DNA of 35,441 nt from an uncultured Clostridia bacterium. GTDB taxonomy: Bacteria > Bacillota > Clostridia > TANB77 > CAG-508. The notes under the pieces are model-generated. The model searched no databases and was not told the origin of the DNA. It worked only from the letters and a program-made list of their open reading frames with translations. Positions 5,989 to 31,555 of this stretch are shown piece after piece (within the stretch, counting starts at the first letter, position 1; every line of letters begins with the position of its first letter). The stretch covers positions 1 to 35,441 of the forward strand of contig CALXYR010000003.1 in NCBI GenBank assembly GCA_944393025.1. The letters run 5' to 3'. A program made the translations under genes and the position numbers.

Positions 5989-6963
5989 TTAATTTAAATT
6001 ATTTATACTTTGTTGCACTGGTAATTCATATATTTCTAATTCATCTGAATTCATATTTTTTTCATTAAATGATACTGCATTTATTTGGTTATTATAATAT
6101 GTTTTAAAATAATATATTCCCTTAGTTGAATTAATGCATGAAGAATATGTTGTCATATCTAATTTATTTTCTTTTGTAACTACTGTTCCTTTTATCATTG
6201 ATACTGAATCTAGAATATGAAAAAACTGTGATATTGTTTCTTCTTCACTAACACATTCTACTGAATTTAGCTTATTAAATACTGCTCTTACAAATCTGGA
6301 TGGTGGAGTTACATCTCCAGGTAGTCCTACCATACTTATTCCTTGTCCATATACATTTAATTTAATTTTATCTGAAAATCTATTTGCAGGGAAATCTGAT
6401 GAAATATTCATATAATTACTAACATTAAGTTCATGATAGTAAAATGGTGGGTTGTTTGTTAACACTCCATATGGGTTATCATATATTTTTAATCCTTCTT
6501 CCATTTGCTCTAATACAATACAATCATTTTTATCACTAATCATCCAATGTAATTGTGCTGATGGCATTTTTTCATTAAATTTTTCGTCAGTTATATTTAG
6601 TTTATTTAACTCTTTTTTTAGTTCCGAAACTTTTGAAAAGTTACCTAAAATCCATGGTATTAATTCAAATGATGCTATATTGGTATAGTTTTCTTTTTCT
6701 TTTTTATATACTGCATTATCTGGAAAATATAATCCTGCTATACATAATCCTTTTTCATTTGTAGCATCTGCATATAATGGGTAATTATCTACCACTGTTG
6801 CCATTCCAATAATAGCATATTTTAAATTAAAAATTGTATTGTTTTTTAATTTAAATGCATAATTTCTTGGAGCTATTACTACTTTTTCTCCAAAATTATA
6901 TTCCAAATCTAAATTTCTTCCAAAATAAAAATCTTTACTTTTAAATTCAATACAAGTGCACAT
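5989..6963 (-). CDS. Choloylglycine hydrolase family protein (bile-salt hydrolase / penicillin V acylase-like)
   Basis: A 324-residue N-terminal-nucleophile amide hydrolase, the usual length for the family. The catalytic Cys2 follows the initiator Met directly (M-C-T-C), and the family set is visible: R16 and D19 in G-R-N-L-D-L-E, D66-A-T-N-E-K-G-L, N170 in L-T-N-N-P, and R223 in P-P-S-R-F-V-R-A. There is no signal peptide, so it should act in the cytoplasm. In bile-salt hydrolases the position after A-G-L is usually Asn (N-F-P-G); here it is Y79 (A-G-L-Y-F-P), the residue found in penicillin V acylases. Substrate preference is therefore open: conjugated bile salts, penicillin V or another N-acyl amide. 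It has an AAGGAG ribosome binding site and lies 49 bases after exoA. Confidence 0.88.
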   Translation of the reverse strand: MCTCIEFKSKDFYFGRNLDLEYNFGEKVVIAPRNYAFKLKNNTIFNLKYAIIGMATVVDNYPLYADATNEKGLCIAGLYFPDNAVYKKEKENYTNIASFELIPWILGNFSKVSELKKELNKLNITDEKFNEKMPSAQLHWMISDKNDCIVLEQMEEGLKIYDNPYGVLTNNPPFYYHELNVSNYMNISSDFPANRFSDKIKLNVYGQGISMVGLPGDVTPPSRFVRAVFNKLNSVECVSEEETISQFFHILDSVSMIKGTVVTKENKLDMTTYSSCINSTKGIYYFKTYYNNQINAVSFNEKNMNSDELEIYELPVQQSINNLN

Positions 6964-15160: not shown

Positions 15161-16858
15161 TTATTTTTTACTTATTTTAGCTACTATAACGCTCATGTCA
15201 TCTTTTTGTTTTCCAAAATCATTATCTATTGCTTCTTTAATTATAATATCTGCAATTTTCTGTGCATCATCAGTTTCTAAGTCTTCTAATAAATATCTAA
15301 GCCATAATTGTTTATTCAAATATTCTTTATTAGAATCTATTACTCCATCAGTACACATTACAAGTATGTCCCCATCTTGTAAATCATAATCATATACTAC
15401 TAAATCTAATTCATTTAATATTCCAGTTGGAAGTGAAACTGATTTTAATAATTGTACATTTCTTCCTCTTTTTATATATGTTGGACAAGCACCATTTTTT
15501 ATAAATTCCATGTTTCCATTATATAAATCTAAAATTTCAATATCTAATGTTGCATACATATCATCTTTGCTATTTGCAGATAATGTTGAGTTTATTAATT
15601 TTAAAGATACATCTTTTTCAAAACCTGCAGTTAATAATCTTTCTAGCATCTTTGTTGCAATTTTACTACTTTTCATAGCTTCAGGTCCTGAACCCATTCC
15701 ATCACTTAATGCTAGTAAATATTTTCCATCTTGTAATTTTATTTGTAAACTACTATCTCCTGAAACTGGCGAACCACATTTAGTAGATTTTGCAGTTCCT
15801 ATTTGTATGTAATATTTATCATCAGAAATATATGTAAATTTGCATATATCTCTTTCTAATCTCAATCCACACTCTTGGTTTTGTATAGTCAAGTCTTGTT
15901 TTAATACTTTATTTATTATTTTATTTATTTTCTTTATATCACATTCTGTACCATCTGTATTATTACAAGTATCAGTATAAACATCTACTAAATATCTACC
16001 AGAACTTTTTTTCTTTATTTCTATATTTTTTACTTCTATTTCTTTTTGTTCTAATAATTTAAATATTTCTTTTTTCTCCGTAGCAAATTCATCTTCTTCT
16101 TTGCTTATATCTTCCGCCATTTTAGAAATAACTTCTGATACTCCTTTTAACTGTTCAGATATATTTTTTTTGCTCTCATCAAATTTCTTTTTCCATATAA
16201 AGTTTATTTTGCTTACTCTATATGAATAGTTTATAGCTTTAACAATTTTATTTATATCTTCATTTGCTTTACTTTTTGTATTTTCAAATCCTACAATATA
16301 ATTATTATTTTTTTCTAATATTTTAATTAATTCTTTTTCTGTTATTACATCATTTTTTAATAAATGTTCAAATATATCTGTTATTATTTCTTCTGTAGGA
16401 TAATATAGCTCATCATATAACATATTTTCTTCTAATTGTTCTATATTTTTTTGTAATTCTTCTAAAAATATATCTATATTATTTTTTTCTTGTTCTTTTA
16501 GTTCTTTTTCATCTAAAATAGTTGCTGCTGCCTCACTATAACTTTCTGCCATATCAAATATAGTATCTGAAATACTATTTAACTTATATATTGTATCTTT
16601 GTTTTCTTCTAAATTTCTTTGGGTTGTTTCTGGTAACATTTTAGTATTACCCATTAAATCTTCTATATTTATTTCTATATTTTTAGGAATTGCTAATAAT
16701 CCTAATGAAGCAATTAATATTTCTTGAAAAATTATAATTTCTGATGTATTTCCATTTGTTACATAAGCTAAAATTACATTTCCTAATATAAAGCCTACTA
16801 TAACTCCTATTCTTCCTAATTTATTTAACAAACCTGCTATTAATCCGTGAAATTGCAT
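15161..16858 (-). CDS. spoIIE: SpoIIE C-terminal part (PP2C phosphatase), frame-shifted from its N-terminus
   Basis: A 565-residue frame holding the last membrane helices (G-L-I-A-G-L-L-N-K-L-G-R-I-G-V-I-V-G-F-I-L-G-N), a long helical linker (about 80-290) and the PP2C phosphatase domain (about 365-560). Metal-binding acidic motifs are intact: A-L-S-D386-G-M-G-S-G, C-T-D504-G-V-I-D and K-D-D-M-S. SpoIIE dephosphorylates SpoIIAA in the forespore and so releases sigma-F; it also acts at the polar septum. The apparent start ATG (16856-16858) has no ribosome binding site and falls inside the preceding frame, so this is not a separate gene. Dropping one base (16847) joins A-Y-A-I-S to G-L-I-A-G, giving about 835 residues, the normal SpoIIE length. 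The stop is followed by a strong terminator. Confidence 0.9.
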   Translation of the reverse strand: MQFHGLIAGLLNKLGRIGVIVGFILGNVILAYVTNGNTSEIIIFQEILIASLGLLAIPKNIEINIEDLMGNTKMLPETTQRNLEENKDTIYKLNSISDTIFDMAESYSEAAATILDEKELKEQEKNNIDIFLEELQKNIEQLEENMLYDELYYPTEEIITDIFEHLLKNDVITEKELIKILEKNNNYIVGFENTKSKANEDINKIVKAINYSYRVSKINFIWKKKFDESKKNISEQLKGVSEVISKMAEDISKEEDEFATEKKEIFKLLEQKEIEVKNIEIKKKSSGRYLVDVYTDTCNNTDGTECDIKKINKIINKVLKQDLTIQNQECGLRLERDICKFTYISDDKYYIQIGTAKSTKCGSPVSGDSSLQIKLQDGKYLLALSDGMGSGPEAMKSSKIATKMLERLLTAGFEKDVSLKLINSTLSANSKDDMYATLDIEILDLYNGNMEFIKNGACPTYIKRGRNVQLLKSVSLPTGILNELDLVVYDYDLQDGDILVMCTDGVIDSNKEYLNKQLWLRYLLEDLETDDAQKIADIIIKEAIDNDFGKQKDDMSVIVAKISKK

Positions 16859-17648
16859 ATGCTGTAATCATTATTGGTTCTGTACCAGTTATAACTCCAA
16901 GTACTACTCCTATTGTTATTCCTCCAGTTGCTCCTACTAACATTCCATTTTTCCATCCTAATATTAGTACAATCAAAATACTTAAAATGTTTTTAATTGA
17001 AAAAGAAAAAATATTAAAACTATCAAATACTGTTACTGTTATTGCAAGTAAAAGACTTGTCCCTATTACTTCTTCAATAGTAAATGCTCTTTTTGTTCTA
17101 AAATCTATAATCATTGTTATAGAATTAGTAAAAATTTTATAGAAAATATATGTAGTCATGCTAAGCATTATACTAGTTAGCAAATCAAAAACATAAAATG
17201 TTTTAAAAAACATTGGAACTAATTGTACCAATAATGTAGCAAAAAATAAGTGCAACCCTATTTTCATTTTTTCATTTATATTTTCTTGAATTACAGGTCT
17301 TATAACTAAAATTAATGAAAAGAATACTAATGAAGTTATAAAATATATTAATAAATTATTTAATCCAAATTTAATAAATGTTCCTACTAGTGTTAAAACA
17401 TATATTATTCCTATTGGCCTATTATTACTTAGTGCACTAGCCACAATTGCTAATGCAAATGGTGTTATTGAAAACATAAAATTGTTTTTATCAAAACTAA
17501 CCATCGATATTAAAAATGATACTATATATAAAATTATATTTTCTTTTGCAAATAATTTTTTTAACACATCCTTTGTATTAACTTTTTTATTTTCTTCAAC
17601 ATATTCATTTTGATTTTTTAATGATTCCCCACTTATATTTTGGAACAT
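16821..17648 (-). CDS. spoIIE: SpoIIE N-terminal membrane part, frame-shifted
   Basis: About 275 residues: a short polar N-terminus (about 40 residues) followed by several hydrophobic helices, ending in the SpoIIE-typical G-G-I-T-I-G-V-V-L-G-V-I-T-G-T-E-P-I-M-I-T-A-Y-A-I-S. The frame then runs into the unrelated tail R-I-N-S-R-F-V-K and stops at 16821, overlapping the C-terminal frame by 38 bases. This part would place the phosphatase in the septal membrane. The start is the ATG at 17646-17648 with an AGAGGTGG ribosome binding site; a GTG at 17657 lies inside that site and is unlikely. Without the phosphatase part this fragment cannot activate sigma-F, so either the strain is asporogenous, the frameshift is bypassed, or the base is an assembly error. 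Confidence 0.85.
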   Translation of the reverse strand: MFQNISGESLKNQNEYVEENKKVNTKDVLKKLFAKENIILYIVSFLISMVSFDKNNFMFSITPFALAIVASALSNNRPIGIIYVLTLVGTFIKFGLNNLLIYFITSLVFFSLILVIRPVIQENINEKMKIGLHLFFATLLVQLVPMFFKTFYVFDLLTSIMLSMTTYIFYKIFTNSITMIIDFRTKRAFTIEEVIGTSLLLAITVTVFDSFNIFSFSIKNILSILIVLILGWKNGMLVGATGGITIGVVLGVITGTEPIMITAYAISRINSRFVK

Positions 17649-17710
17649 AGTAACCACCTCTACTTTTTTATTTATGCATTAATGTTTTATTTTAAGTCTT
17701 CTTTTGTATT

Positions 17711-17732
17711 AATAGCATTTCTTAATGCTATT
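17711..17732 (-). other. Hairpin in the spoIIE leader
   Basis: AATAGCATT and AATGCTATT form a perfect 9-bp stem with a 4-base loop, just downstream of the candidate -10 and about 60 bases before the spoIIE start. No U tract follows. Confidence 0.45.
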
Positions 17733-17734
17733 TT

Positions 17735-17767
17735 ATTATAGCTTTTAAAAAAATATTTTTTTGTCAC
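17735..17767 (-). promoter_or_regulatory. spoIIE: Candidate spoIIE promoter with 21-bp spacing
   Basis: On the - strand GTGACA (17762-17767) and TATAAT (17735-17740) are separated by 21 bases. Bacillus spoIIE and spoIIG promoters have near-consensus hexamers with 21-22 bp spacing and need Spo0A bound over the -35 region. TTTGTCACA on the + strand here is a partial match to the TGTCGAA 0A box, and TTTTGTAAAAAA (17786-17797 on the - strand) is another. The rest of the 17649-17995 gap is AT-rich with repeated TTTCAATATTTTA strings and copy 3 of the 18-bp element. Confidence 0.4.
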
Positions 17768-17910
17768 ATTTAATCCATAATATAAAAAAGTTTTTTACAA
17801 AATGTGATGTGCTTTCCATATTTTCAATATTTTATGCCTATTATTTTATATCAAAATAACTTTTTTTTCAATATTTTATTGAATTATAGTAAAAAATAGC
17901 AAAAATTAGT

Positions 17911-17928
17911 GTTACTGTTAAGTGTATT
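17911..17928 (-). repeat. Copy 3 of the 18-bp repeated upstream element
   Basis: Read towards spoIIE this is AATACACTTAACAGTAAC, which matches the 15051-15068 copy at 15 of 18 positions. It lies about 265 bases upstream of the spoIIE start and 22 bases past the terminator of the preceding operon. It is the weakest of the three copies. Confidence 0.4.
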
Positions 17929-17949
17929 AAATATCTGGAATATCTATTC

Positions 17950-17989
17950 AAAAATAGGAAGCAACTAAATTAGCTACTTCCTATTTTTT
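17950..17989 (-). terminator. Terminator of the A2-B2 adhesin operon
   Basis: AAAAATAGGAAG (17950-17961) pairs with CTTCCTATTTTT (17978-17989) around a loop; the T run on the - strand lies at the end of the stem. It begins 6 bases after the B2 stop codon. Confidence 0.85.
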
Positions 17990-17995
17990 TAAATA

Positions 17996-20900
17996 TTATT
18001 TTTTAGTTTTTAATACTTTTGTTTTTATTATTATTATTCCTGCTATAAGTACAATTAGAACAATTATTGCTGAAATAATATAAATAATTGTATTATCACC
18101 AAATGGAGTAAGTATTATAATTCTTTCTGCTCTAGAACTATCAACTTCTGCTGGTTCTTTTGTTGGATCTTGATTTCCTACTATTGAGAATGCCATTCTT
18201 CTTCCTACTGTATTACTTGTTTTAACTATTTCTACTATATTTTTATAAGTTAATTCATCTTCTGAATTATCTCTTGTAATTACTTCACTTAAAGTTAATT
18301 TTTGTGAATCTGTTTCTTCCCCTGGAGTTAATGCCTTTCCTAATTTATTAGTTGTAATTATATAATTAAATTTATTTACACTTTCTGTTAAATTTGTGTT
18401 TACTAAGTTTCCTAATAAAGATGTTTTATCTATATTGTCCCAGTCTGTATTGTCTGCATTATTTTTATCAAATTTAAAGTTATTTGATATATAATCTATT
18501 ACTTGATCTGCACTTGTTGTTACTATATCAGTTCCTTTTGTTCCTATATAATAGAAATTTTTGTTATTATAGTCTTTTTCTCCAACATTTTTAACTTTAA
18601 CTTCATAAGTTGTTTCTATTGTTGCACCATGCATTAATTCTTCATCCATTGTTAATTGTATTAGTCCATGGTCATTATTGTTTACAATATTATCTACTTC
18701 TTCTCTATATGAATACCTATTTTTATTTTCTTCTCCATAATAGTCTTCATATTTTTTAGTTTCTTCTAATTTTTTATAACCTAAAAGTGGTTTCTCTGCT
18801 TTTTCATCTAAGTTATATTGTTCATGTTTTCTCCATAAAACATTATTTGCTTTATCTTCTACATCAAATAATATTGTTCCATTTGCTAAAGTTACTTTAA
18901 TATGTGTTACTTTTTTGTCTATTTCTAATTGTGCTTTTGGTCTTTCCTCTAGACCTAAATCTATTCCATCTAAACTATATGCAGGATTTCCACTACCTAC
19001 TGTAGTTTGTGTATTTTTTTCTACTTCTACAACAATAACACCTGTTTCTGCTACCATATATGTATTTTCAGCAAGTTCTTGTTGTAAATCTTTATTTCCA
19101 GTATATGGTGATGCTAATATTTCTGCTTTATTGTTAGTTACTCCTTCTTTACTGTAATTAATTACCTCTTCTCTTCTATCCCATATATCTTTTGCATCTG
19201 ATACATTTTTTCCTTCTGAAGTAGCTATATCATACCCATAACTTTTTGATTCATTTTGATTTTCTATGTCTGTATAACCGTTATAGTTTCCATCAATGTC
19301 TGTATGTTCTTTTTGTTCTATTCCTGCTTGATATGTAGTAGATTTAAAATCTTGTCCATTATATATGTCTCCTGCATTATTTCCATAGGTAAATCTTACT
19401 ATATAATCTCCTGGTATATAACCACTAAATTCATAATTTCCATTATTTTTTGTTACTTGTTCTTCTTGCCATTTAATGTAGTTTCCTTTAGCAGTTTTTA
19501 TTAATAGTTCAACTGTAATTCCTCCTACACCTTTTTCATCTTCTTCTCTTAATCCATTACCTATAATTGCACCATCTAAATCCTCTGTTTTAGTTCTTTC
19601 ATCTTCCCAAACATTTCCATTTATTTTTCTTGATTCTTGTAATGAATTAACATTTAAAGCTGGTGCTTTATCTTCATCATCTTCTTGTGGTCCTTGTTCT
19701 TTATTATAATTGCTTGGTATAGAATCCTTATCTACTCTTCCTGCTATTACATCATTTGATGTTATCTCATAATTATTTTCTCCATAATGTGGTAATATTG
19801 TTCCTGCTTTATAATATGTTTTAAATGCTCCTATTTCTACTGCATTTTCTTTTTCTCCTAATTTTAATTTTCCATCATTATTAGAATTTAGCTTAAATGT
19901 TAAATATAAATATACTGTTTCTCCTGAAGCTTGTTTTTTACCAACATCAATTTCTAATTTATTATCTTTATTACTTAATACATTAATCTTTTCTAAGTTT
20001 TCATCTAAAAGTTTACCCTGTGCCATAGCATCTTGTAATTTATTTAATGTTTCTTCATCTGTTTTATAGTTTGTATTACTTTGCCATGATAAACCTTCTT
20101 CAAATGTAAATGTATTATCATAATAGTCATATAGTTTTGTTACATGTCCTAACATAGATTGTGATTGATTTCTTACTGCTATTTTATATGTAACATATAC
20201 TTCTAGTAATTGGTTACTTACTTCTTCTTTATTATAATTTTGCCCTGTGTAGTTATAGTCTGATGGATCTAGTCCTCTTTCATAACCTCCTACAATATTA
20301 ATGTTCCAAGTATCTCCTGTTTCTCCATCATTGTTTCCTATATTTCTTTGATCATAACCATATACTTGTGTTTTTCCATTTATTTTAACTGTTGCTATAT
20401 ATAAGTCTTTCTTTAATGCCATATCAAATTCTATTCTTCTTGTAATACCAAAGTCTATTTCTTTTTGACTATCTCCTTCTTTATATATAGCATGATATGT
20501 TACTCCATTAAATTCAACATCTTCTTCTCCTATAACAAATGTATCATATTTTGGATATGTTTGTAATCCATTTAATCCATCTGAACCAGTATATGCTGAT
20601 ATTCCGAATAATTCGTTTGGCATATATCTTTGTTCTGATTCCCAATTTAAATCTTCTAAAGTATATCCTTCATCACCATCTATTTCTTCGAATTTTTTGT
20701 TAAATTCATCCCTATCCTTCATGGATTCTGTTGCATTTGAATATCCACCTGCTAAATTGTTATTATATATTGTATTTTGATATTGTTGACCATTATATTC
20801 AAATTGTACATAATATTTGTCTAAAACATATAAATCAGTAAATTTATATTCTCCTGAAGCATCTGTTGTTGTTTGTGCAACTACTGTTCCATCTTCTTTA

Positions 20901-22174
20901 TATAATGTAACAGGTATTCCTACTACAGGTGGCTCTCCTTCATCTTGCATACCATTAAGTTCATTCTCCTTACCTGCTCTTACATCTTCCCAAACATTTC
21001 CACCTAGTTCCATTATAATTTCTGTTGGTCCAAATTCTATTTCTTCTTCATATATTGTTCTTACAGCATCCATACATCTAACTGGTTGTGGGCTTCCTAC
21101 TTGTTCTAAATCGAAGTCTACTCTACATCTATGTAAACTTCCTGAACTACAGCAAGAATATTCATCATTATTATAATCATCATATTCAGATATTGAAACT
21201 ACATATTGATGACCAACAAAATCTGCATATACTCCTGATGCTAGCATATATTTAAATTTAACTTTTATTGATACAGATTTTATTTCTGAATCTTCTGGAA
21301 CAGTAAATACAACTTGAAATTCTTCTCCTGGTTCTGGATATGTTTGTTCTTCTCTATCTACTTTATTACCATCTGGTGTAAAATAGTGAATATTACTTAC
21401 TAATTTATCTCCTATTATTAATCCTGAAATAGGTATTTCTGTTCCATTATCTGCAACAACTAATATTTCTGATATTCCTCCAAAAGTTATATCTCCATAA
21501 TTTCCATTATCATAATTTACTGAATATGGTCCTAATATAATTTGTTTTGAAGAACTATTTACTTTTGCTACAGCATCTCCACTACCAGATGGATTTAGTC
21601 CATCTTTTGCTTGTGAGGCATAGGCTGCATATTTTTCTGCTTCTGCAATTAGTGCTTTACCTGCATCTCCCATTCCATCATGGTCATGTGCTCCTGCACC
21701 TCCCCATATAGCATGTTGTTTAACTTCTGACCATCCACTACCATCATGAGAAACAATGTATGCATCTTTATCTGAAAGAGTTCCTTCTCCTGATTTTTTG
21801 TATAGTGGATTTGTTAACTTTCCATTTAAACTCTTATCAAATGGAACTGATGCATGAGCATGATCACCATAATATGTACCAACATACTTTGCAGCTTCAT
21901 AATATGATATATCTCCCATTTTGGTATCTACCCCAGCTCCTACACAGAAGAATGGATAACCTCCATATAATGGTATATGGTGCTCGCTTTCTATTCCTGT
22001 TGGTTCAAATTCTGAGCCTGTGAAAATATTATATTTTATACCATCACCAGCGTTTAATTTTTTAGATGGAACTATTGAGTTTATTGATTCTTGTTTAAGA
22101 TTAAGTATTACAAATATGGTACTAATTGCTAATAAAATTAATACAAGTATAATACTTAAGTATTTTTTCTTCAT
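17996..22174 (-). CDS. B2: giant surface adhesin with thioester-type tip and two SdrD_B domains
   Basis: A 1392-residue surface protein. Order: N-terminal membrane/signal helix (about 5-24); a tip domain (about 40-380) with Y-P-F-F-C77-V and V-K-Q153-H-A-I-W157, the Cys and Q-x-A-I-W pattern of thioester (TQXA/TED) adhesin domains; a Cys-rich stretch (C341, C342, C350, C367); a first SdrD_B domain (about 388-470, G-G-N-V-W-E-D-V-R); a DUF11-like stalk (about 580-800) with F-D-M-A-L-K-K-D-L; a second SdrD_B domain (about 849-935, I-N-G-N-V-W-E-D-E-R); more stalk; and a C-terminal helix (about 1363-1385) with a K-T-K-K tail. There is no LPxTG motif. Such thioesters bind host proteins covalently. 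It is a paralogue of B1 with a near-identical stalk but different tip, and follows A2 with an AGGAGG ribosome binding site. Confidence 0.82.
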   Translation of the reverse strand: MKKKYLSIILVLILLAISTIFVILNLKQESINSIVPSKKLNAGDGIKYNIFTGSEFEPTGIESEHHIPLYGGYPFFCVGAGVDTKMGDISYYEAAKYVGTYYGDHAHASVPFDKSLNGKLTNPLYKKSGEGTLSDKDAYIVSHDGSGWSEVKQHAIWGGAGAHDHDGMGDAGKALIAEAEKYAAYASQAKDGLNPSGSGDAVAKVNSSSKQIILGPYSVNYDNGNYGDITFGGISEILVVADNGTEIPISGLIIGDKLVSNIHYFTPDGNKVDREEQTYPEPGEEFQVVFTVPEDSEIKSVSIKVKFKYMLASGVYADFVGHQYVVSISEYDDYNNDEYSCCSSGSLHRCRVDFDLEQVGSPQPVRCMDAVRTIYEEEIEFGPTEIIMELGGNVWEDVRAGKENELNGMQDEGEPPVVGIPVTLYKEDGTVVAQTTTDASGEYKFTDLYVLDKYYVQFEYNGQQYQNTIYNNNLAGGYSNATESMKDRDEFNKKFEEIDGDEGYTLEDLNWESEQRYMPNELFGISAYTGSDGLNGLQTYPKYDTFVIGEEDVEFNGVTYHAIYKEGDSQKEIDFGITRRIEFDMALKKDLYIATVKINGKTQVYGYDQRNIGNNDGETGDTWNINIVGGYERGLDPSDYNYTGQNYNKEEVSNQLLEVYVTYKIAVRNQSQSMLGHVTKLYDYYDNTFTFEEGLSWQSNTNYKTDEETLNKLQDAMAQGKLLDENLEKINVLSNKDNKLEIDVGKKQASGETVYLYLTFKLNSNNDGKLKLGEKENAVEIGAFKTYYKAGTILPHYGENNYEITSNDVIAGRVDKDSIPSNYNKEQGPQEDDEDKAPALNVNSLQESRKINGNVWEDERTKTEDLDGAIIGNGLREEDEKGVGGITVELLIKTAKGNYIKWQEEQVTKNNGNYEFSGYIPGDYIVRFTYGNNAGDIYNGQDFKSTTYQAGIEQKEHTDIDGNYNGYTDIENQNESKSYGYDIATSEGKNVSDAKDIWDRREEVINYSKEGVTNNKAEILASPYTGNKDLQQELAENTYMVAETGVIVVEVEKNTQTTVGSGNPAYSLDGIDLGLEERPKAQLEIDKKVTHIKVTLANGTILFDVEDKANNVLWRKHEQYNLDEKAEKPLLGYKKLEETKKYEDYYGEENKNRYSYREEVDNIVNNNDHGLIQLTMDEELMHGATIETTYEVKVKNVGEKDYNNKNFYYIGTKGTDIVTTSADQVIDYISNNFKFDKNNADNTDWDNIDKTSLLGNLVNTNLTESVNKFNYIITTNKLGKALTPGEETDSQKLTLSEVITRDNSEDELTYKNIVEIVKTSNTVGRRMAFSIVGNQDPTKEPAEVDSSRAERIIILTPFGDNTIIYIISAIIVLIVLIAGIIIIKTKVLKTKK
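20358..20438. repeat. 81-bp identical block shared by B2 and B1 (copy in B2)
   Basis: The 81 bases here are identical, by eye, to 29475-29555 in B1. A second identical block of about 65 bases links 20128-20192 with 29260-29324. They code for the stalk after the first SdrD_B domain (M-A-L-K-K-D-L-Y-I-A-T-V-K-I-N-G). Confidence 0.85.
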
Positions 22175-22294: not shown

Positions 22295-25200
22295 TTAAAA
22301 TATTGGTCCACCTGTTACAATTCCTACTAAAATTTCTGCTTTTGATATATCATCTTCTGTTTCTTTTTTATTTCCTGGAGTTGAATCTATATCATCCACT
22401 CCAATAGGATTATATGCCTCATATATTTCTGCATTATTTTCTAAAATTCCTAAAGTATCTTCTGTTATTTTCATGCTAACAATTAAACTTACTTCTTTTT
22501 CTTCTCCTGGATTAATAATTTCATTTTCTAAACTTGTATTATATATTTCTCCTGTATTAGATAAATACCAATCTGTATTTAAATCTGTTGAAAATTTTAC
22601 ATCTTCTGGTAAATAATCCACTATTTTTTTAGCATATCCACTAATTTCTCCTTCGTTTTTTATAACAATTCTGTATTCAATTACAATGTCACTATTTCCA
22701 ACATTTCTTTCTAATACATCTATTTTAGTTAATTGTTCTTTATTATATGAATATGTTTTAGTACCTATTGTTGGAGTTGTTAATGTGATTTTATTTATAT
22801 ATTTTGATAGTGATAAATCAAACTTTTGTGATAAATATAATCCAATATCTATATCTCTAACATTAGAATTTATTATTTTTATTTCATCTGATATAGCAAC
22901 TAATCTTCTTTCTCCTGTAATTTCAGAATTCATAACAATTACATCTGAATTTAAAGAATCGCTAACACCTTTTGCTTTATAATCTGTTACTGAGTATTTA
23001 GATGAATCATATAAAAATACTACTATGTATTCTCCTTTTTCAAGATTTTGGAACTCATATTTACCTTCATTATTAGTAGTTGTTCTTTTTTCTTCGTTTG
23101 TTTCCTTATCTTTAACTATTTCATTATTACTATTTAATAATATTACTGAAATATTTGATAATAATTCTTCTCCATCTTCTCTTTTACCATTTTTATTTTC
23201 ATCAACCCAAGCTGTACCAGATATTTTAAATCTTTGGTCAGGATTTATTGGATTTTCTGGATCTGGATTTTCTGGATCTGGATTTTCTTCTCCTCCATCT
23301 CCTGTAGTTTGATGTTTGTCTGGATCATACTCAACTATATTTGTAACTACATTACTTTTAATTTCGGAAATATTTTCTGCATAAATACTTACATCATTTT
23401 TTATTTCTTTATCATCTTTACTATTTAATAAATTAGCTTTTACTATAATTGTAACTTCTGAAGATTCTTCATATTCTAAGTATGGTATTAATATATTTAT
23501 TTTTCCTTCTGATAAATTTGTAATTAATACTTCTGTATTGTTTTTTCCATATGTATATATAGCTTTTTCAAATTCTAATCCTTCTGGTACTTGGCTTACT
23601 ATATTTACATTTTGTGCTGTAGCTAAACCTTTATTTTTTATATTAATTTTATAAGTTATTAATTCTCCTTCTTTTACATATTTAGGAGTTGATGTTAATT
23701 CAGAAACTTCTAATTCTGCTTTTGCTACTTTGTGTTCTGATATGTTTGAATATGTAATTTCATTTCCATTTATGTTTGCATCTGCAATAATAGAAATTTC
23801 ATCCATATCTTCATTAATTTTTGTATTTACTGTTATATATTTAAACTTATCTATTTTATCTATTTGTATTAAAACATTATTTGTGTTTTCATCATATACT
23901 ATGCCTTCGGTTGTTTCTTCTCCTGTTCTTCCATCTTCAATAGTTGCACTTTCACAAATTAGACCTTTAGGTAATGGGAGATTTACATTTACTGAATCTA
24001 TACTTGGATTTTCAGAAATATTTTTTAATATGATTTTATATTGTATAGTATCATTTTTAGTTAAAATATTTGTTTCTGGAACATTTGATATTAATTTAAG
24101 TGCTATATTTCCCTCATTAATTTGTGTATCAAATGTGCTTGTTATTTCTGTATTATCTAATTCATCAGATTTTAATTTTGTCTCTATTTTTGCATTTACT
24201 GGATATTTATCACTTGAAAGCATTCCGTATTGTACATAAAACTCAATTTTTTTTGTTTCATTTAAATCTAATTTTCCTACTTCTAATGTTTTAGAATTTG
24301 TATTTTCATCATAAAATCCATTTCCTGGTGCATATTCTGTAAAAGTTGCTCCTTCTGGTAAATTTATAGTTATATTAGTATTATTTGAAATAACACTACC
24401 TATATTTTTTATTATTGCATTATATTTTACAATTTGTCCTTCTCTTACTTCATTTACAGTTGGTTTAAGTTCAACCGATAAATCTGGTCCAACACCTGTT
24501 GTTAATTTTAATAATGCTGATTCTTTTTCTTCTACTTTATTTCCAACTATTGATTCATTAATATAATAAGTTTTAAACATTTGCGACGTATTTTGTGAAT
24601 ATTTTAAGTTGTTTGGTATTTCAATTTTATAAGTGAAATCTATGTTTTCACCTTGTTTTAATGTATAATCATTAAATATAACTAAATATGCTTTTGTATT
24701 GTCTGTTATATTTTCAGTCCATTTATTATTTGCGTCTGTTAAATCTTTTGTTGCTAATGAATTTTCTGTATAATATACTTTATAATTTTTTTCATCTATA
24801 TTATTTAATTTTATTCCTTCAACAACTTTAGCTGTAAATGTTGCTTCTAATTTTTCGCTACTATCTATTTCATTATTATTAGTCGTTGGGAATTTACCTA
24901 ATACTGAAATATTACTAATATCATTAGAATAATTATTTATAATTTTCCCTTTTACTGTTGCTGTTCTACTATTTGAATATGCTTCAATTTCTATTTCTTT
25001 ATTTTCTCCAGATAATGCTAATACTTCATTTTTATTTTCCATATAATTTGAAATACTATTTGCAAGTATTATTCCACTAGGAGATACTATTTTTACATCT
25101 GTGCTAACTTTACCTGTGTTATTTTGTGCTAGAGCATTTTTATTTGTGTATTCTAATGTAATTTTGTCTGTCATACTAGGTGCTAAATTATATACTGTAA

Positions 25201-26707
25201 TATCTGTATTTAGTATAATTGTTGTTCCTTTATATTGATTATTTATTGTATAATCTTTTTGTATTCCTTCTAATGTAATATATATATTGTTATTTTCTTC
25301 TTCTTTTTTTACTTCTGCTTTTTTAATTTTTAGACCATTGTCCATTAATATATTTGTATTTTTTATACTTAAATCTGATATACTTTCTGGTAATTGTATT
25401 TTTAAAGTAGGGTTATCAAATAATGCATTATTTGTAGTAGATGTATCTAATATTACTCTAATTTCCACATTTTCATTTTTTATTACAGAAGATAAATTTT
25501 TTCTATCTATTTCTATACTTGCAACTGTTTCTTGTTCTTTTAATAAAATATTCTTTGTTAAACTTAGTTCATCTTGTGTTTTTATTTTTGAATTAATTTG
25601 TAATTGTTTTATTTGTTTAATTTCATTTAAAGATATATTTGAATTATTTTTTAATTCTTTTTCTATTTCTATTTGATAATTACCAATATTTTGTATTTTA
25701 CTTGTTTCAATTTTTATATTTTTACCAAATGAACTAATGTCTAATACATAATTGTTGTTATCATCTTTATTAGTGTTTTTATCTATTCTAGCTAATTCTT
25801 CATCTTCTTTATTTTTTATTAAAATTATTCCATCTTCTCCTAGCATTTTTTCAAAATCACTAGATAGTATTTTTAAATTTTTATTAGATAATAAATTATT
25901 TAGTTTAATTTCTTCATTATTTTCATCTAAAAATTTCTCATCTTCTTCAATTATTTCTAGTTTATTCATTATGTCTTTGTCAATAATATTTATTGAATAC
26001 TTTGCTGAAAAATTAGTACTAAAATCTTTTTGTTGTAATATATTAGCATATAAGTTTCCTTTTGAAATCTCGTTTTCCACATTTAATTGTGCATCTGTTA
26101 ATATATTTACGAATTCACTAATTTCTATAGTATTTTCAATATTTTTTTCTATAATTTGATTATTATTTTCAAGTTCATTTGCAATTATTTTAGAATTAAT
26201 ATTTGAATTAATTTCATTTATAGAATAAATTTCTTCTCCTTCATAAAAGAAATTTAAAACATATTCACTTTTTAAAGTGTTTTCTTCTGAATTCTTTTCT
26301 CCTATTAACTTTAATTCAATAGTATCTTGCTCTGTACTATATAAATTATTATTTTCTTGCTCTAAACTATTTTTTTCAAAAACAGTTAAATAATTAGGAC
26401 TAATTTCACCTAATTTTGGAACTTTAATATTTAGTTTAATATTATCATCAAAATTACTTATATTATTTATATCTATTAAAATATTAGTTTGTAAAACAAT
26501 ACCATATTTTTCTGCAATATGATATTTTATAGCTTTTGATGATCCATAACTTATATTTATATCATCTTCATAAGCTTTTTTTACTTCTTCTATTTCATTA
26601 TCTATTGCATAAGATATTGTAAAATTACCCATTAATGTTATTAAATTAATTCCTATTATACATAATATTAATAAGATTGAAATTATTTTATTAGATTTAT
26701 TTGACAT
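22295..26707 (-). CDS. A2: giant DUF11/SdrD_B stalk protein, membrane anchor cut off by a stop codon
   Basis: A 1470-residue exported protein. A signal/membrane helix (about 7-30) is followed by a long beta-rich region with several DUF11-like repeats. Examples are G-P-D-L-S-V-E-L-K-P-T-V, A-K-A-E-L-E-V-S-E-L-T-S-T-P, and K-Y-N-A-I-I-K-N-I-G and Y-K-I-N-I-K-N-K-G strands with L-P-E-G turns. Then come a Pro/Asp/Glu linker (about 1128-1158), one SdrD_B domain (about 1159-1290, I-S-G-T-A-W-V-D-E-N-K-N-G-K-R-E-D-G) and a final DUF11 domain. It ends at V-T-G-G-P-I-F, exactly before the expected membrane helix, which is still encoded after the stop (see 22187-22294). As written, the protein would be released or held by partners only. 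It has a consensus promoter and an AGGAGG ribosome binding site, is a paralogue of A1, and forms the first gene of an operon with B2. Confidence 0.83.
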   Translation of the reverse strand: MSNKSNKIISILLILCIIGINLITLMGNFTISYAIDNEIEEVKKAYEDDINISYGSSKAIKYHIAEKYGIVLQTNILIDINNISNFDDNIKLNIKVPKLGEISPNYLTVFEKNSLEQENNNLYSTEQDTIELKLIGEKNSEENTLKSEYVLNFFYEGEEIYSINEINSNINSKIIANELENNNQIIEKNIENTIEISEFVNILTDAQLNVENEISKGNLYANILQQKDFSTNFSAKYSINIIDKDIMNKLEIIEEDEKFLDENNEEIKLNNLLSNKNLKILSSDFEKMLGEDGIILIKNKEDEELARIDKNTNKDDNNNYVLDISSFGKNIKIETSKIQNIGNYQIEIEKELKNNSNISLNEIKQIKQLQINSKIKTQDELSLTKNILLKEQETVASIEIDRKNLSSVIKNENVEIRVILDTSTTNNALFDNPTLKIQLPESISDLSIKNTNILMDNGLKIKKAEVKKEEENNNIYITLEGIQKDYTINNQYKGTTIILNTDITVYNLAPSMTDKITLEYTNKNALAQNNTGKVSTDVKIVSPSGIILANSISNYMENKNEVLALSGENKEIEIEAYSNSRTATVKGKIINNYSNDISNISVLGKFPTTNNNEIDSSEKLEATFTAKVVEGIKLNNIDEKNYKVYYTENSLATKDLTDANNKWTENITDNTKAYLVIFNDYTLKQGENIDFTYKIEIPNNLKYSQNTSQMFKTYYINESIVGNKVEEKESALLKLTTGVGPDLSVELKPTVNEVREGQIVKYNAIIKNIGSVISNNTNITINLPEGATFTEYAPGNGFYDENTNSKTLEVGKLDLNETKKIEFYVQYGMLSSDKYPVNAKIETKLKSDELDNTEITSTFDTQINEGNIALKLISNVPETNILTKNDTIQYKIILKNISENPSIDSVNVNLPLPKGLICESATIEDGRTGEETTEGIVYDENTNNVLIQIDKIDKFKYITVNTKINEDMDEISIIADANINGNEITYSNISEHKVAKAELEVSELTSTPKYVKEGELITYKINIKNKGLATAQNVNIVSQVPEGLEFEKAIYTYGKNNTEVLITNLSEGKINILIPYLEYEESSEVTIIVKANLLNSKDDKEIKNDVSIYAENISEIKSNVVTNIVEYDPDKHQTTGDGGEENPDPENPDPENPINPDQRFKISGTAWVDENKNGKREDGEELLSNISVILLNSNNEIVKDKETNEEKRTTTNNEGKYEFQNLEKGEYIVVFLYDSSKYSVTDYKAKGVSDSLNSDVIVMNSEITGERRLVAISDEIKIINSNVRDIDIGLYLSQKFDLSLSKYINKITLTTPTIGTKTYSYNKEQLTKIDVLERNVGNSDIVIEYRIVIKNEGEISGYAKKIVDYLPEDVKFSTDLNTDWYLSNTGEIYNTSLENEIINPGEEKEVSLIVSMKITEDTLGILENNAEIYEAYNPIGVDDIDSTPGNKKETEDDISKAEILVGIVTGGPIF
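23250..23290. repeat. 15-bp in-frame tandem repeat in the A2 linker
   Basis: The unit GGATTTTCTGGATCT is present twice (23250-23264, 23265-23279) with a partial third copy. On the - strand it encodes repeats of N-P-D-P-E. Gain or loss of units would change linker length in steps of five residues without a frameshift. Confidence 0.8.
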
Positions 26708-27079: not shown

Positions 27080-30000
27080 TTATTTTTCTTCTTTTTTAAT
27101 CATTACTTTTTTTATAATTAATGCTATACCTATTACTAATGTTAATCCAATAACAATTGCTAATCCATAATAGAATTTAACTTTACCAAATGGAGTAAGT
27201 ATTATAATTCTTTCTGCTCTAGCACTATCAACTTCTGTTGGTTCTCTTGTTGGATCTTGGTTTCCTACTATTGAAAATGCCATTCTTCTTCCTACGGTAT
27301 TGCTTATTTTAACTATTTCCACAATATTTCTATAAGTTAAATCATCTTCTGAATTATCTCCTGTAATTAACTGAGTTAATACTAATTCTTTTGGAGATGT
27401 TTCGTCTCCTGGTTTTAAGTCTTGTTTTAAAGCTTCTGTTTGAATTATATAATTATATTTGTCTACAGATTCTTTTAGTTTGTAATTTACAAGTGTATCT
27501 TGTGGACTAGCTTCATTTATTAATTGATTCTTTTCAATTAAGTCCCATCCTTCATTTTTTGTTTTACTAAATTTAAAGTTATTTGCCACATAATCTACAA
27601 TCATATCTGCACTTGTTGTTACAACAGTCTCTTCATTTCCAGAGTTTCCTAAATAGTAGAATCCTTTATTATTATAATCATATTCTCCAGCATTTTTTAC
27701 TTTAACTTCATAAGTTGCTTCTATTGTTGCACCATGCATTAACTCTTCATCCATTGTTATTTGTATTAGTCCATGATCATTACTTTTAACAATTTTATCT
27801 ATTTCGTTTCTATATGAATTATGTTTTTCATATAATCCATTTCCATCTTTTTCATCAGCTATATTGTATTCTTTATGTTTTATCCACATAACATTATTAG
27901 CTTTATCTTTTACATCAACTAATATTGTTCCATTTGCTAATGTTACTTTAACATTAGTTACTTTTTTGTCTATTTCTAATTGTGCTTTTGGCCTTTCTTC
28001 TAATCCGAAATCTATTCCTTCTAATGTATATGATGGAGTTCCATTACCTTCTGTAGATTGAGTATTTTTTTCAACTTCTGCAACAATAACACCTGTTTCT
28101 GCTACCATATTTGTATTATCATTAAAGGTCTTATATAATTCATTAATTTCATCTTGTGTATATGGTTCATTATATTCAGTTATATAGTATGGTGACGCTA
28201 ATATTTCTGCTTTATTGTTAGTTACTCCTTTATTACTGTAATTAATTACATCTGCTCTTCTACTCCATATATCTTTTGCATCTGATACATTTTTTCCTTC
28301 TGAAGCAGCTATATCGTATCCATAAGTTGCAGTCTCGTTTTGATTTTCTGTATCTGTATATGGTTTATATTTATTATCTAAATCTGTAAAACCGCTTTCT
28401 CCAATTCCTTTAGTTTCTACTCCTACTTGATATGTAGTAGATTTAAAGTCTTGTCCATTGTATGAGGTTTTATTTTTATCTGTTTTTGTAACATTATTTC
28501 CATAAATGAATCTTACTATATAATCTCCTGGTATATAACCATCAAAATTATAATTTCCATTAGTATCTGTTTGTGTTGTTTTCCATGTATAGTATTCTCC
28601 CCCTACAGTTTTTTCCACAAGTTCAACTGTAATTCCTTCTATACCTTTTTCGGAATCTTCTCTTTCTCCATTACCAACCATAGCTTCATTTACTTTGTTA
28701 GTTCTTACATCTTCCCATACATTTCCATTTATTTTTCTTACATCATCTGTTAATTTAACATTTAATATTGGTGCCTCATCTTCATCATCTTCTTGTGGTC
28801 CTTGTTCTTTACTATAATTACTTGGTATAGAATCTTTGTCTATTCTTCCTGCTATTACTGTATCATTTCCTATTTTGCAATTATTTACTCCATAATGTGG
28901 TAATATTGTTCCTTCTTTATAATATGTTTTAAATGCTCCTATTTCTACTGCATTTTCTTTTTCACCTAACTCTAATTTTCCTTCACTGTTAGAATTTAAT
29001 TTAAATGTTAAATATAAATATACTGTTTCTCCTGATGCTTGTTTTTTACCAACATCAATTTCTAATTTATTGTCTGAACTATTTGAACCAGATGTACTAC
29101 TATCATTTGATACTTTAGCGTTTACTCTTTCTCCATCTTCAATTTTTCCAGTTGCAAATTTATTTTGCAACTCATCTAAAGTAGTCTTTGATTTTGTATA
29201 ATTTATACCACTCTTCCAAGATAAATCTTCTATATATTCAAATGTTTCATCATAATAATCATATAGTTTTGTTACATGTCCTAACATAGATTGTGATTGA
29301 TTTCTTACTGCTATTTTATATGTAGCATATACTTCTAATACCTGATTATTTCCGTTCTCTCCATTGAAATTATAATCTGATTTATCTAATCCTCTTTCAT
29401 AGCCACCTACTGCATTAATCGTCCATGTATCTCCTGTTTCTCCATCATTATTTCCTATATTTTTCTCATCATATCCATATACTTGTGTTTTTCCATTTAT
29501 TTTAACTGTTGCTATATATAAGTCTTTCTTTAATGCCATATCAAATTCTATTCTTTCTGTTATACCAAAATCTATTTGTAATAAGTTTTCTGCATTATCT
29601 TCTTCACCATATATTCTATCATATTTAGTATCACCAATATATGTTTTATCTGTTTCTATAGGATTTCCATCTTCATCTGTTGGATGGTAATCTTCATTCT
29701 CAACTACAGTTATTGTAAACTTTTCGTCACTTGGATATAATCTTTTTTGATTTAATCCATCTGGGCCTGTATATGCAGATATTTTAAATTTGTCATTTAT
29801 AGGAATATATGTATCTTGATTTTCTAGATATGATTTGTCATATCCGTCATCTATTCCATCTATTTCTTCAAATCTTAGATTAAATTCATCTCTATCATTT
29901 GTTGATTCTGTTGCATTTGAATAACCTCCTGACAAATTATCTTCATATATAGTGTTTTCATAATGTTGTCCATTATATTGAAATTCCACATAATATTGAA

Positions 30001-31555
30001 GCATTGGATTTAATTTTTCAAACAAATAATTTCCTTCAGCATCTGTTGTTGTTATTGTTTGTTTGTCATATTTATCTTGTGCAATATTTCCATTTGCTTC
30101 ATGAAGTATAACAGTTATTCCTTCAACTGGTAATTCTTTTTCATCAAACTTACCATTTACAACATTTTCTTTTCCTGATTTTAAATCTTCCCAAACATTT
30201 CCACCTATTTCTATAGTTGGATCATACCCTTTTTCTTCTTCTACAGGAATTCTTATTTGATATTGTGCTACTCTATGTATTACAAATGGATTTATTCCTA
30301 TTAAAGGTTGTTCTGCAATCTCTTGCATAGCATCTGCTCCTGGTTTTACATATTGATAGCAATCCTCAATATGTGTCTTTGTTCCATCTATATATTTATA
30401 ATGAGATTCATCTTTACAATTACTAGGATTTTTACAATTTTCTTCTACATGTACTTTATTAGTTATACTTTCTTCCCATATATGACGATGATTGCTTCCT
30501 TTATCCACATATAATCTTTGTGAATAACTTACTCCATCATAATGAAATACTTGTGCATAATATTCATCCCATTCATATGTTACAGTTATTGTTATATAAT
30601 CACTTTTAAAAGCATCTCCTGCTCCAGAGAATGAAAGATTAAATTCAGAACCAGTTTTTGGATATTCACTAAAACTATGTGATACATTTCCTCCACCTAT
30701 ATCATAAGATATATCTGTTACTTGTCCAAATCCACCTGTAGATGGATAATCAATACTAAGTGGTCCTACTGAATAACTTTGTGAGTTTCTGTCAACTTTA
30801 GTAGTACCTCCATAAGAAATGTTAACTGCTGGATTTCCTTCTGCGTCTTTATTTAAACTATTATAAAAATCACTATAAGAATTTGCTTCATTTACTTTTT
30901 CTTGAAAACCTTTAGCATATTCTTCTCTTGGATCTCCTGCTGCTGCATAATCCCCTGCACTTTGTGCTGGATTTCCTTCATTTACAATTCCATCTACTGC
31001 ATTATTCCAAATAGCTTCTTGAACATACCCAGAAAATTCAGAACCTGCTTGATTAAATAAATATGCTGCTGAACCTTCCACTATTTCTTGTCCAGACAAA
31101 GAATAATATGCTTTAGTATTAAGTCCTCCTCCTTCTGCTCCTCCTGTTATTCCATTTAACTTACTTTCAAGTGCACTAACATCAGAACCTGATACATATG
31201 TACTAGTATTTGGAACATGTGTTTTGCCGCCTGTAGCTAACCAACTACTAGCTTTACTTTGCAATTCTTCTTTTGTTATTCCTTCTACTTTTGGTGCAGT
31301 TCCTCTAGATACACAATATAATGTCATTCCATCTGTTTTTGGTACTTGATATCCGCTACCAGCATATTCTGTAGATACATTTAAATCAGTTGGTGGTTGT
31401 GTAAGATAATCGTTTACATAATCTGGTACAAAATATGTTTTAGCTTTTAATATAATTTCATTAATATCTTTTTTATCAATTTTTAAATATACAATAATCA
31501 TCATACAAATACTTAATACTACTGTAAATATTATTAAACTCTTTTTTCTATTCAT
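27080..31555 (-). CDS. B1: giant surface adhesin with thioester-type tip and two SdrD_B domains
   Basis: A 1491-residue paralogue of B2. Order: N-terminal membrane/signal helix (about 6-24); tip domain (about 55-440) with M-T-L-Y-C81-V and Y-V-Q179-E-A-I-W183, a clear thioester-domain (TQXA/TED) pattern; a His/Cys-rich stretch (H356-R-H358, C374, C380, H395, C399); a first SdrD_B domain (about 449-530, G-G-N-V-W-E-D-L-K); a DUF11-like stalk with F-D-M-A-L-K-K-D-L-Y-I-A-T-V; a second SdrD_B domain (I-N-G-N-V-W-E-D-V-R); further stalk; and a C-terminal helix after L-T-P-F-G, with a K-K-E-E-K tail. No LPxTG motif. Covalent host attachment is inferred from the thioester motif. The start has a GGAGGTGAGAG ribosome binding site 11 bases after A1, so A1-B1 is an operon. 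Confidence 0.83.
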   Translation of the reverse strand: MNRKKSLIIFTVVLSICMMIIVYLKIDKKDINEIILKAKTYFVPDYVNDYLTQPPTDLNVSTEYAGSGYQVPKTDGMTLYCVSRGTAPKVEGITKEELQSKASSWLATGGKTHVPNTSTYVSGSDVSALESKLNGITGGAEGGGLNTKAYYSLSGQEIVEGSAAYLFNQAGSEFSGYVQEAIWNNAVDGIVNEGNPAQSAGDYAAAGDPREEYAKGFQEKVNEANSYSDFYNSLNKDAEGNPAVNISYGGTTKVDRNSQSYSVGPLSIDYPSTGGFGQVTDISYDIGGGNVSHSFSEYPKTGSEFNLSFSGAGDAFKSDYITITVTYEWDEYYAQVFHYDGVSYSQRLYVDKGSNHRHIWEESITNKVHVEENCKNPSNCKDESHYKYIDGTKTHIEDCYQYVKPGADAMQEIAEQPLIGINPFVIHRVAQYQIRIPVEEEKGYDPTIEIGGNVWEDLKSGKENVVNGKFDEKELPVEGITVILHEANGNIAQDKYDKQTITTTDAEGNYLFEKLNPMLQYYVEFQYNGQHYENTIYEDNLSGGYSNATESTNDRDEFNLRFEEIDGIDDGYDKSYLENQDTYIPINDKFKISAYTGPDGLNQKRLYPSDEKFTITVVENEDYHPTDEDGNPIETDKTYIGDTKYDRIYGEEDNAENLLQIDFGITERIEFDMALKKDLYIATVKINGKTQVYGYDEKNIGNNDGETGDTWTINAVGGYERGLDKSDYNFNGENGNNQVLEVYATYKIAVRNQSQSMLGHVTKLYDYYDETFEYIEDLSWKSGINYTKSKTTLDELQNKFATGKIEDGERVNAKVSNDSSTSGSNSSDNKLEIDVGKKQASGETVYLYLTFKLNSNSEGKLELGEKENAVEIGAFKTYYKEGTILPHYGVNNCKIGNDTVIAGRIDKDSIPSNYSKEQGPQEDDEDEAPILNVKLTDDVRKINGNVWEDVRTNKVNEAMVGNGEREDSEKGIEGITVELVEKTVGGEYYTWKTTQTDTNGNYNFDGYIPGDYIVRFIYGNNVTKTDKNKTSYNGQDFKSTTYQVGVETKGIGESGFTDLDNKYKPYTDTENQNETATYGYDIAASEGKNVSDAKDIWSRRADVINYSNKGVTNNKAEILASPYYITEYNEPYTQDEINELYKTFNDNTNMVAETGVIVAEVEKNTQSTEGNGTPSYTLEGIDFGLEERPKAQLEIDKKVTNVKVTLANGTILVDVKDKANNVMWIKHKEYNIADEKDGNGLYEKHNSYRNEIDKIVKSNDHGLIQITMDEELMHGATIEATYEVKVKNAGEYDYNNKGFYYLGNSGNEETVVTTSADMIVDYVANNFKFSKTKNEGWDLIEKNQLINEASPQDTLVNYKLKESVDKYNYIIQTEALKQDLKPGDETSPKELVLTQLITGDNSEDDLTYRNIVEIVKISNTVGRRMAFSIVGNQDPTREPTEVDSARAERIIILTPFGKVKFYYGLAIVIGLTLVIGIALIIKKVMIKKEEK
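29475..29555. repeat. 81-bp identical block shared by B1 and B2 (copy in B1)
   Basis: Identical, by eye, to 20358-20438 in B2, in the stalk-coding part; a second pair is 29260-29324 with 20128-20192. This is far closer than the tips of the two proteins and suggests recent duplication or gene conversion. Confidence 0.85.

Follow-up and report, generated by a model that had tools for sequence, protein, structure and literature searches.

A divergent, previously uncatalogued family of thioester-domain-like heads on stalked surface proteins of uncultured Clostridia

Introduction

Can a thioester domain (TED) that the catalogued domain models miss be recognised in a large surface protein encoded by an uncultured Clostridia bacterium, and if so, which of its glutamines would form the bond? 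This question is raised by the gene B1, located on a stretch of 35,441 nucleotides (hereafter, the window; assembly GCA_944393025.1, contig CALXYR010000003.1, positions 1 to 35,441). Thioester domains provide bacteria with a means of covalent attachment, and the characterised examples come mostly from pathogens. A first-pass annotation of the window, made from its letters, described B1 as a stalked surface protein with such a domain at its tip, took C81 and Q179 as the bonded pair, and regarded the distance between them as short enough to suggest a new subclass.

The published structures provide the frame in which such a claim has to be placed. According to the descriptions in PMC4450167 and PMC6194298, TEDs have a TQxxPhiW motif on helix a2, whose Gln and Trp make hydrogen bonds with the backbone of the Cys and without which the bond is still possible, while the Gln that forms the bond in the characterised domains is found in a later strand. 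The Cys-Gln pairs given for class I are C109-Q261, C94-Q247 and C138-Q267, a spacing of about 129-153 residues (Walden et al., PMC4450167), and those given for class II are C71-Q266, C296-Q467 and C88-Q292, a spacing of 171-204 (Miller et al., PMC6194298).

Results

The first description of B1 as a stalked surface protein is supported. Pfam recognises SdrD_B in two stretches of the stalk (PF17210, 5.5e-18), and a C-terminal hydrophobic segment, followed by a basic tail, fits the membrane anchor that had been claimed; the DUF11 part of the claimed stalk did not stand, as Pfam finds no DUF11 in B1 and matches this domain in the neighbouring genes instead. Cna and ester domains are likewise absent from the Pfam matches of B1, and no stalk of the isopeptide or ester type was encountered. 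The two head motifs lie where the annotation had placed them: Y-C81-V within YCVSRG and V-Q179-E-A-I-W183 within VQEAIWNN, with 98 residues from C81 to Q179. YCVS agrees with the [YFL]C-Phi-zeta motif known from the literature, and in the helix motif a V replaces the T of TQxxPhiW.

The first clue that this head belongs to a family came from a second such gene in the window, the paralogue B4, which has FFC77V and KQ153HAIW despite a divergent head. The same pattern of motifs is present in three relatives from the genus, and C81, Q179 and W183 are invariant in five relatives with 23-28% identity. Because direct protein searches among the relatives gave matches only at E ~1e-4, the family was built stepwise, up to 36 distinct heads, whose identity to B1 is no more than ~20-28%. 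Of these heads, 35 have an intact N-terminus, and all 35 carry the Cys; the helix Gln is found in 35/36, as is the Trp. These counts come from a set of relatives chosen partly by homology to profiles that contain these three columns. A profile made of 19 relatives, with B1 excluded, gives B1 a score of 52.3 bits (the best of 1000 shuffled copies reaches 6.8) and puts C81, Q179 and W183 in register with the corresponding columns of the family. Judged from the sequences, the domain family is real and the motifs of B1 belong to it.

A profile of five sequences has matches (E <= 0.001) in 87 of 195 genomes sampled from the family-level clade to which the organism belongs. An order-level sample gave matches in 55/191 genomes, every one within that clade, and a class-level sample of 291 genomes gave no family match outside it. 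In the samples of the order and the class, all occurrences of the head family fall within a single family-level clade of Clostridia. The named records with members of the family are metagenome-assembled genomes of uncultured Clostridia, and the record names point to a gut origin for several of them.

The relation to catalogued TEDs had to be established indirectly. The annotation had proposed a profile search of the head against thioester-domain models, and this search found no TED: Pfam and NCBIfam scans of B1, of its isolated head and of 20 family members returned no usable TED match, the Pfam model giving a single match, at E 0.088, among the 20 members. A search of PDB sequences with the family profile gave no significant chain match, only spurious ones to proteasome (E 0.05). 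The link is provided by the Pfam-recognised TED proteins encoded elsewhere in the same genome. One of these, L002, has ~20 relatives with the ordered motifs IYCLKGGPG, QQLAVW, YIIGPF[KR]I and DQPVAIV. The profile-profile comparison of the B1 family with the L002 family scores 54.0 when B1 is included and 48.5 when it is left out, the best of 40 column shuffles reaching 20.3 in the latter case. The L002 family, in turn, is matched to shorter class I-like TEDs with 95.7% probability, which places the Gln of QPV[AV]I opposite their late Gln. A direct profile link from the B1 family to class I-like TEDs of related genomes is unconvincing (3.9% probability).

A class I-like TED protein was observed whose helix motif, ATKMAVYD, has Lys for the usual Gln (L001 and L003, from this genome's contigs C52 and C69, and L051-L069); it is present in many genomes of the clade.

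The predicted fold of the paralogue resembles that of class II TEDs. Its AlphaFold model (mean predicted local distance difference test, pLDDT, 86.6; predicted template modelling score 0.82) has, in this order, helices, seven strands, and two very long strands (260-293 and 309-345) with a loop between them, which is the order of the published description of the class II hairpin fold. Foldseek puts two chains of 6FWY at the top of the PDB matches (E 3.5e-6 and 4.1e-6, prob 0.99), and they are the only ones at E <= 0.001. By VIA-align, 6FWY has a Z of 7.0 and 6FWV a Z of 6.8, values that do not exceed the immunoglobulin-like background and come with a high root-mean-square deviation (rmsd). The weaker model of B1 ranks 6FWV first (Z 8.2, 212 residues) and 6FWY second (Z 7.8, 216 residues) in the PDB, and these matches cover the whole domain, whereas the lower-ranked ones cover ~100 residues. 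The N-terminal thioester-domain-like head proposed at first is thus supported by the conservation in the family, the profile without B1, the profile link to TEDs and the predicted fold.

The pairing of C81 with Q179 did not survive the comparison, since the helix Gln is non-bonding in the characterised TEDs and a second conserved Gln is found in the relatives. The 98 residues counted in B1 separate the Cys from the helix Gln, and had been compared with distances from the Cys to the bond-forming Gln. Because Q179 is the helix Gln and, by homology, not the bond partner, this distance is ordinary and not short: the spacing from Cys to helix Gln is 54-179 in the B1 family and ~55-105 in the Pfam-recognised TEDs of related genomes. 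We rejected Q179 as the bond partner, as the helix Gln of published TEDs is dispensable for the bond, and also the subclass of short spacing, because the predicted distance from Cys to bond-forming Gln is unusually long instead.

The second Gln lies shortly before the first stalk domain, ~280-370 residues past the Cys, in blocks that the relatives share (KQPVMSVDAIRSIYEQEL, VQDHIAVLKTERKLFETEL, QQWLMAADAIRSLYEQEI). In alignments read by eye it is clear in 30/36 heads, including Q363 of the paralogue, and plausible in four more, including B1. The paralogue model places Q363 (model residue 323) in the expected hairpin strand, within a block of pLDDT 92. When the B1 tail was aligned to the family tail by profiles, the alignment stopped short of the Gln, so the choice for B1 rests on three other arguments, all in favour of Q416. 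First, Q416 is 35 residues ahead of the stalk, and the family median is 34. Second, it is directly followed by a long, confidently predicted strand (418-437, model 379-398). Third, when residues are counted backwards from the point where the 6FWV alignment ends, the count arrives within a residue or two of Q416, and the same count in the paralogue leads to Q363 or a residue beside it. On these indirect grounds we favour Q416 as the bond-forming Gln of B1, which would put the latter 335 residues from C81 (286 from Cys to Q363 in the paralogue).

Two members of the family, L015 and L039, have a natural change of Gln to Asn in the helix motif; L015 retains the Cys and the late Gln (KQPVMC).

The predicted hairpin has at its tip a loop of unusual composition. 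Among 30 relatives, Cys makes up 6.0% of its residues and His 6.2%, compared with 1.0% and 1.9% elsewhere in the domain, i.e., enrichments of about sixfold and threefold, which suggest a metal site or disulfides. The available parts of the published class I and class II descriptions (PMC4450167, PMC6194298) mention no comparable tip.

The genes around B1 form a repeated two-gene arrangement (Table 1). A partner gene of type A precedes a head-bearing gene of type B twice in the window (A1-B1 and A2-B4), and the A-B order recurs in related loci. The stalks of B4 and B1 are 67% identical (mostly 64-76%) and the heads ~25-34% over the first 400 residues; such unlike heads on alike tandem stalks would be expected if the heads were under diversifying selection or were exchanged. 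The A proteins mostly end in S[VLITM]xTG and the B proteins in [LI]PP[FYT]G (mostly LPPFG, with LPPTG or IPPTG in three); in both groups a hydrophobic stretch comes next, and then a basic tail. These C-termini look like sorting signals of two kinds. B1 itself has LTPFG where a sortase-anchored adhesin of the TIE type would carry an LPXTG-type signal. The genome encodes eight sortases, none of them within the window. Since the frame of A1 runs past the end of the window, position 34977 is not its true start. In A2 the stop lies in the context VTGGPIF*ITIIIGIATIIGLG, at a place where A1 has a Tyr codon; the protein would be released, unless this is an assembly error.

SpoIIE-related genes adjoin the A-B cassette in the window and in 13/23 related loci (window 15161-22174; L070, L072, L078-L081, L083, L084, L088-L092). 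In the window, SpoIIE is encoded by two overlapping frames, which match profile positions 18-250 and 263-603 and suggest a frameshift or an assembly error; the frames are split likewise in L078 and L084. The window also encodes a protein of the choloylglycine hydrolase family, of the bile salt hydrolase type (E 2e-104), which fits a gut organism.

Table 1. Features of the window, with positions counted from its first letter.
Feature	Position	Strand	Description or basis
B1 gene	27080..31555	minus	open reading frame of 1491 amino acids; hydrophobic N-terminal segment, TED-like head, SdrD_B stalk, LTPFG-hydrophobic-basic C-terminal tail
TED-like head of B1, residues ~45-446	30218..31423	minus	family alignment, jackknife profile, AlphaFold model, PDB matches
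C81 codon (YCVS), predicted thioester Cys	31313..31315	minus	Cys conservation in family; published motif
Q179 codon, helix Gln in VQEAIW (TQxxPhiW-type)	31019..31021	minus	by homology, not the bond-forming Gln
W183 codon, Trp of helix motif	31007..31009	minus	conservation in family
Q416 codon (AEQPLIG), best candidate for bond-forming Gln	30308..30310	minus	stalk spacing, predicted strand, 6FWV offset
Q401 codon, alternative candidate	30353..30355	minus	
Q411 codon, alternative candidate	30323..30325	minus	
Cys/His-rich loop, tip of predicted P-Q hairpin, B1 residues ~356-405	30341..30490	minus	residue composition in relatives
Sorting-signal-like C-terminal segment of B1 (LTPFG, then hydrophobic and basic parts)	27112..27199	minus	[LI]PP[FYT]G at same place in relatives
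A1 partner gene	31567..35441	minus	DUF11, SdrD_B, ALVTG-hydrophobic-basic C-terminal tail; 11 base pairs upstream of B1
A2 partner gene	22295..26707	minus	DUF11, SdrD_B; in-frame TAA just before membrane segment
B4, paralogue of B1	17996..22174	minus	1392 amino acids; C77, helix Gln Q153, predicted bond-forming Gln Q363
SpoIIE, first frame	15161..16858	minus	overlaps the second frame
SpoIIE, second frame	16821..17657	minus	overlaps the first frame
Choloylglycine hydrolase family gene	5989..6963	minus	bile salt hydrolase type

Discussion

Our analysis places the head of B1 in a divergent, previously uncatalogued family of the thioester domain, the "chemical harpoon" whose chemistry itself is already known. 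We consider it probable that B1 is a stalked surface protein in which this class II-like head forms a thioester between C81 and a Gln. The steps could be as follows: 1) the Cys strand would be followed by a helical bundle carrying the Q..IW motif, the third helix of which would lead into an inserted beta-sandwich; 2) the long P-Q hairpin would return to the Cys and bring to it the Gln of its second strand; 3) C81 and this Gln (most likely Q416, not Q179) would condense into an internal thioester, Q179 and W183 positioning the backbone of the Cys as in known TEDs; 4) the Lys amine of a target protein would attack the thioester, and the cell would become covalently attached; and 5) the SdrD_B-type domains would provide the stalk, with the C-terminus anchored to the membrane or, via the sortase-like signal, to the wall. 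B1 may thus act as a covalent adhesin.

A number of results weigh against this account. The Pfam TED model (PF08341) does not match B1 even at E values as high as 10. Confidence in the structure model of B1 is low (mean pLDDT 64.8, below 50 in the Cys/His loop), Foldseek finds no PDB match for it at E <= 0.001, its Z scores are close to the background usually seen, and the TED matches have a high rmsd of 7-11 A. It is possible that, in the divergent tail of B1, Q401 or Q411 takes the role that we assign to Q416. Finally, neither B1 nor B4 has a clear signal-peptidase site, and if the N-terminal segment remains uncleaved, the head would be near the membrane and not at the tip.

The target of such a domain could be another microbe instead of the host. 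A working TED directed at another bacterium, in mating or co-aggregation, is compatible with the thioester account, from which it differs only in the target, and is a minority possibility that deserves to be taken seriously. It has a precedent in the class II TED protein of plasmid pLS20, where efficient conjugation needs the Cys of the TED (PMC8092201). The genomic context argues the other way: no conjugation genes were recognised in the window, the plasmid collection gave no match for the paralogue head and the phage collection none for the B1 head, and the cassette has a conserved chromosomal place beside spoIIE in 13 of the 23 loci.

A bolder proposal is that the family represents a further structural class of TEDs, in which an extended P-Q hairpin with a Cys/His-rich, possibly metal-binding tip would cover or gate the thioester, and which would be carried by the B subunit of a two-gene system (a DUF11 partner A and a head-bearing B) with two distinct sorting-like signals (S[VLI]xTG and LPP[FYT]G), whose tandem copies keep similar stalks but differ in their heads. 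Taken as a whole, this is speculative, and we would give it perhaps one chance in several.

Slightly less probable still is that the TED fold is retained without a thioester, the head binding its target non-covalently, perhaps through a metal in the hairpin tip. The enrichment of the tip in Cys and His would be explained in this way, as would the ambiguity of the bond-forming Gln in B1; yet no head with an intact N-terminus has lost the Cys despite divergence elsewhere, which fits a bonding role, and the second Gln is clear in most of the family.

That Q179 itself forms the bond, in an arrangement new to TEDs, seems very unlikely to us. The near-invariance of the helix Gln, which can be aligned more readily in B1 than the second one, is what speaks for it, but this residue is neither bonding nor needed in the solved TEDs, it is replaced by Asn in L015 and L039, the former with Cys and second Gln in place, and the confident paralogue model puts a conserved Gln, Q363, in the hairpin strand where one is expected. 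As for a chance motif in a surface protein unrelated to TEDs, the failure of Pfam and NCBIfam to match B1 can be cited in its favour, but the jackknife profile score, far above that of any shuffled copy, the conservation and the structure matches make it the least credible explanation of all.

If the thioester account of B1 is correct, the existence of a lineage-wide family in gut Clostridia would mean that commensals may commonly use covalent attachment to colonise, and the divergent heads provide a ready set for probing what determines the choice of target. The noteworthy elements are the uncatalogued family itself, the unusual hairpin and the testable prediction that Q416, and not Q179, forms the bond.

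Among known systems, the class II TEDs (BaTIE, 6FWV; EfmTIE86 of E. faecium, 6FWY; SaTIE; TIEpLS20) are the best PDB matches of both models among those covering the full-length domain. They share with B1 the YC-Phi-zeta motif, the helical Q..IW, a place at the N-terminus of a stalked surface protein of Gram-positive type and, as far as the models can be trusted, strands after the third helix and a long P-Q hairpin carrying a Gln. They differ in the distance from Cys to bond-forming Gln (171-204 residues when solved, against the 335 predicted for B1 and 286 for its paralogue), and the B1 family has a Cys/His-rich hairpin tip and an SdrD_B stalk instead of CnaB isopeptide or ester domains. The L002 family resembles the B1 family in the order of its motifs, including [IV][IV]GPF[KR]I, in a late Q-P-[VL], and in the ~300 residues from Cys to late Gln, but has a DUF11-type stalk, the Cys context CLKGGPGFG and a longer helical region, and passes the Pfam cut-off. 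The class I TEDs (SfbI, FbaB, Cpa, CpTIE, PnTIE) have in common with B1 the Cys motif, the Gln-Trp motif of the helix, a late Gln and an adhesive role, whereas they lack the inserted beta-sandwich and have a Cys-Gln spacing of ~129-153.

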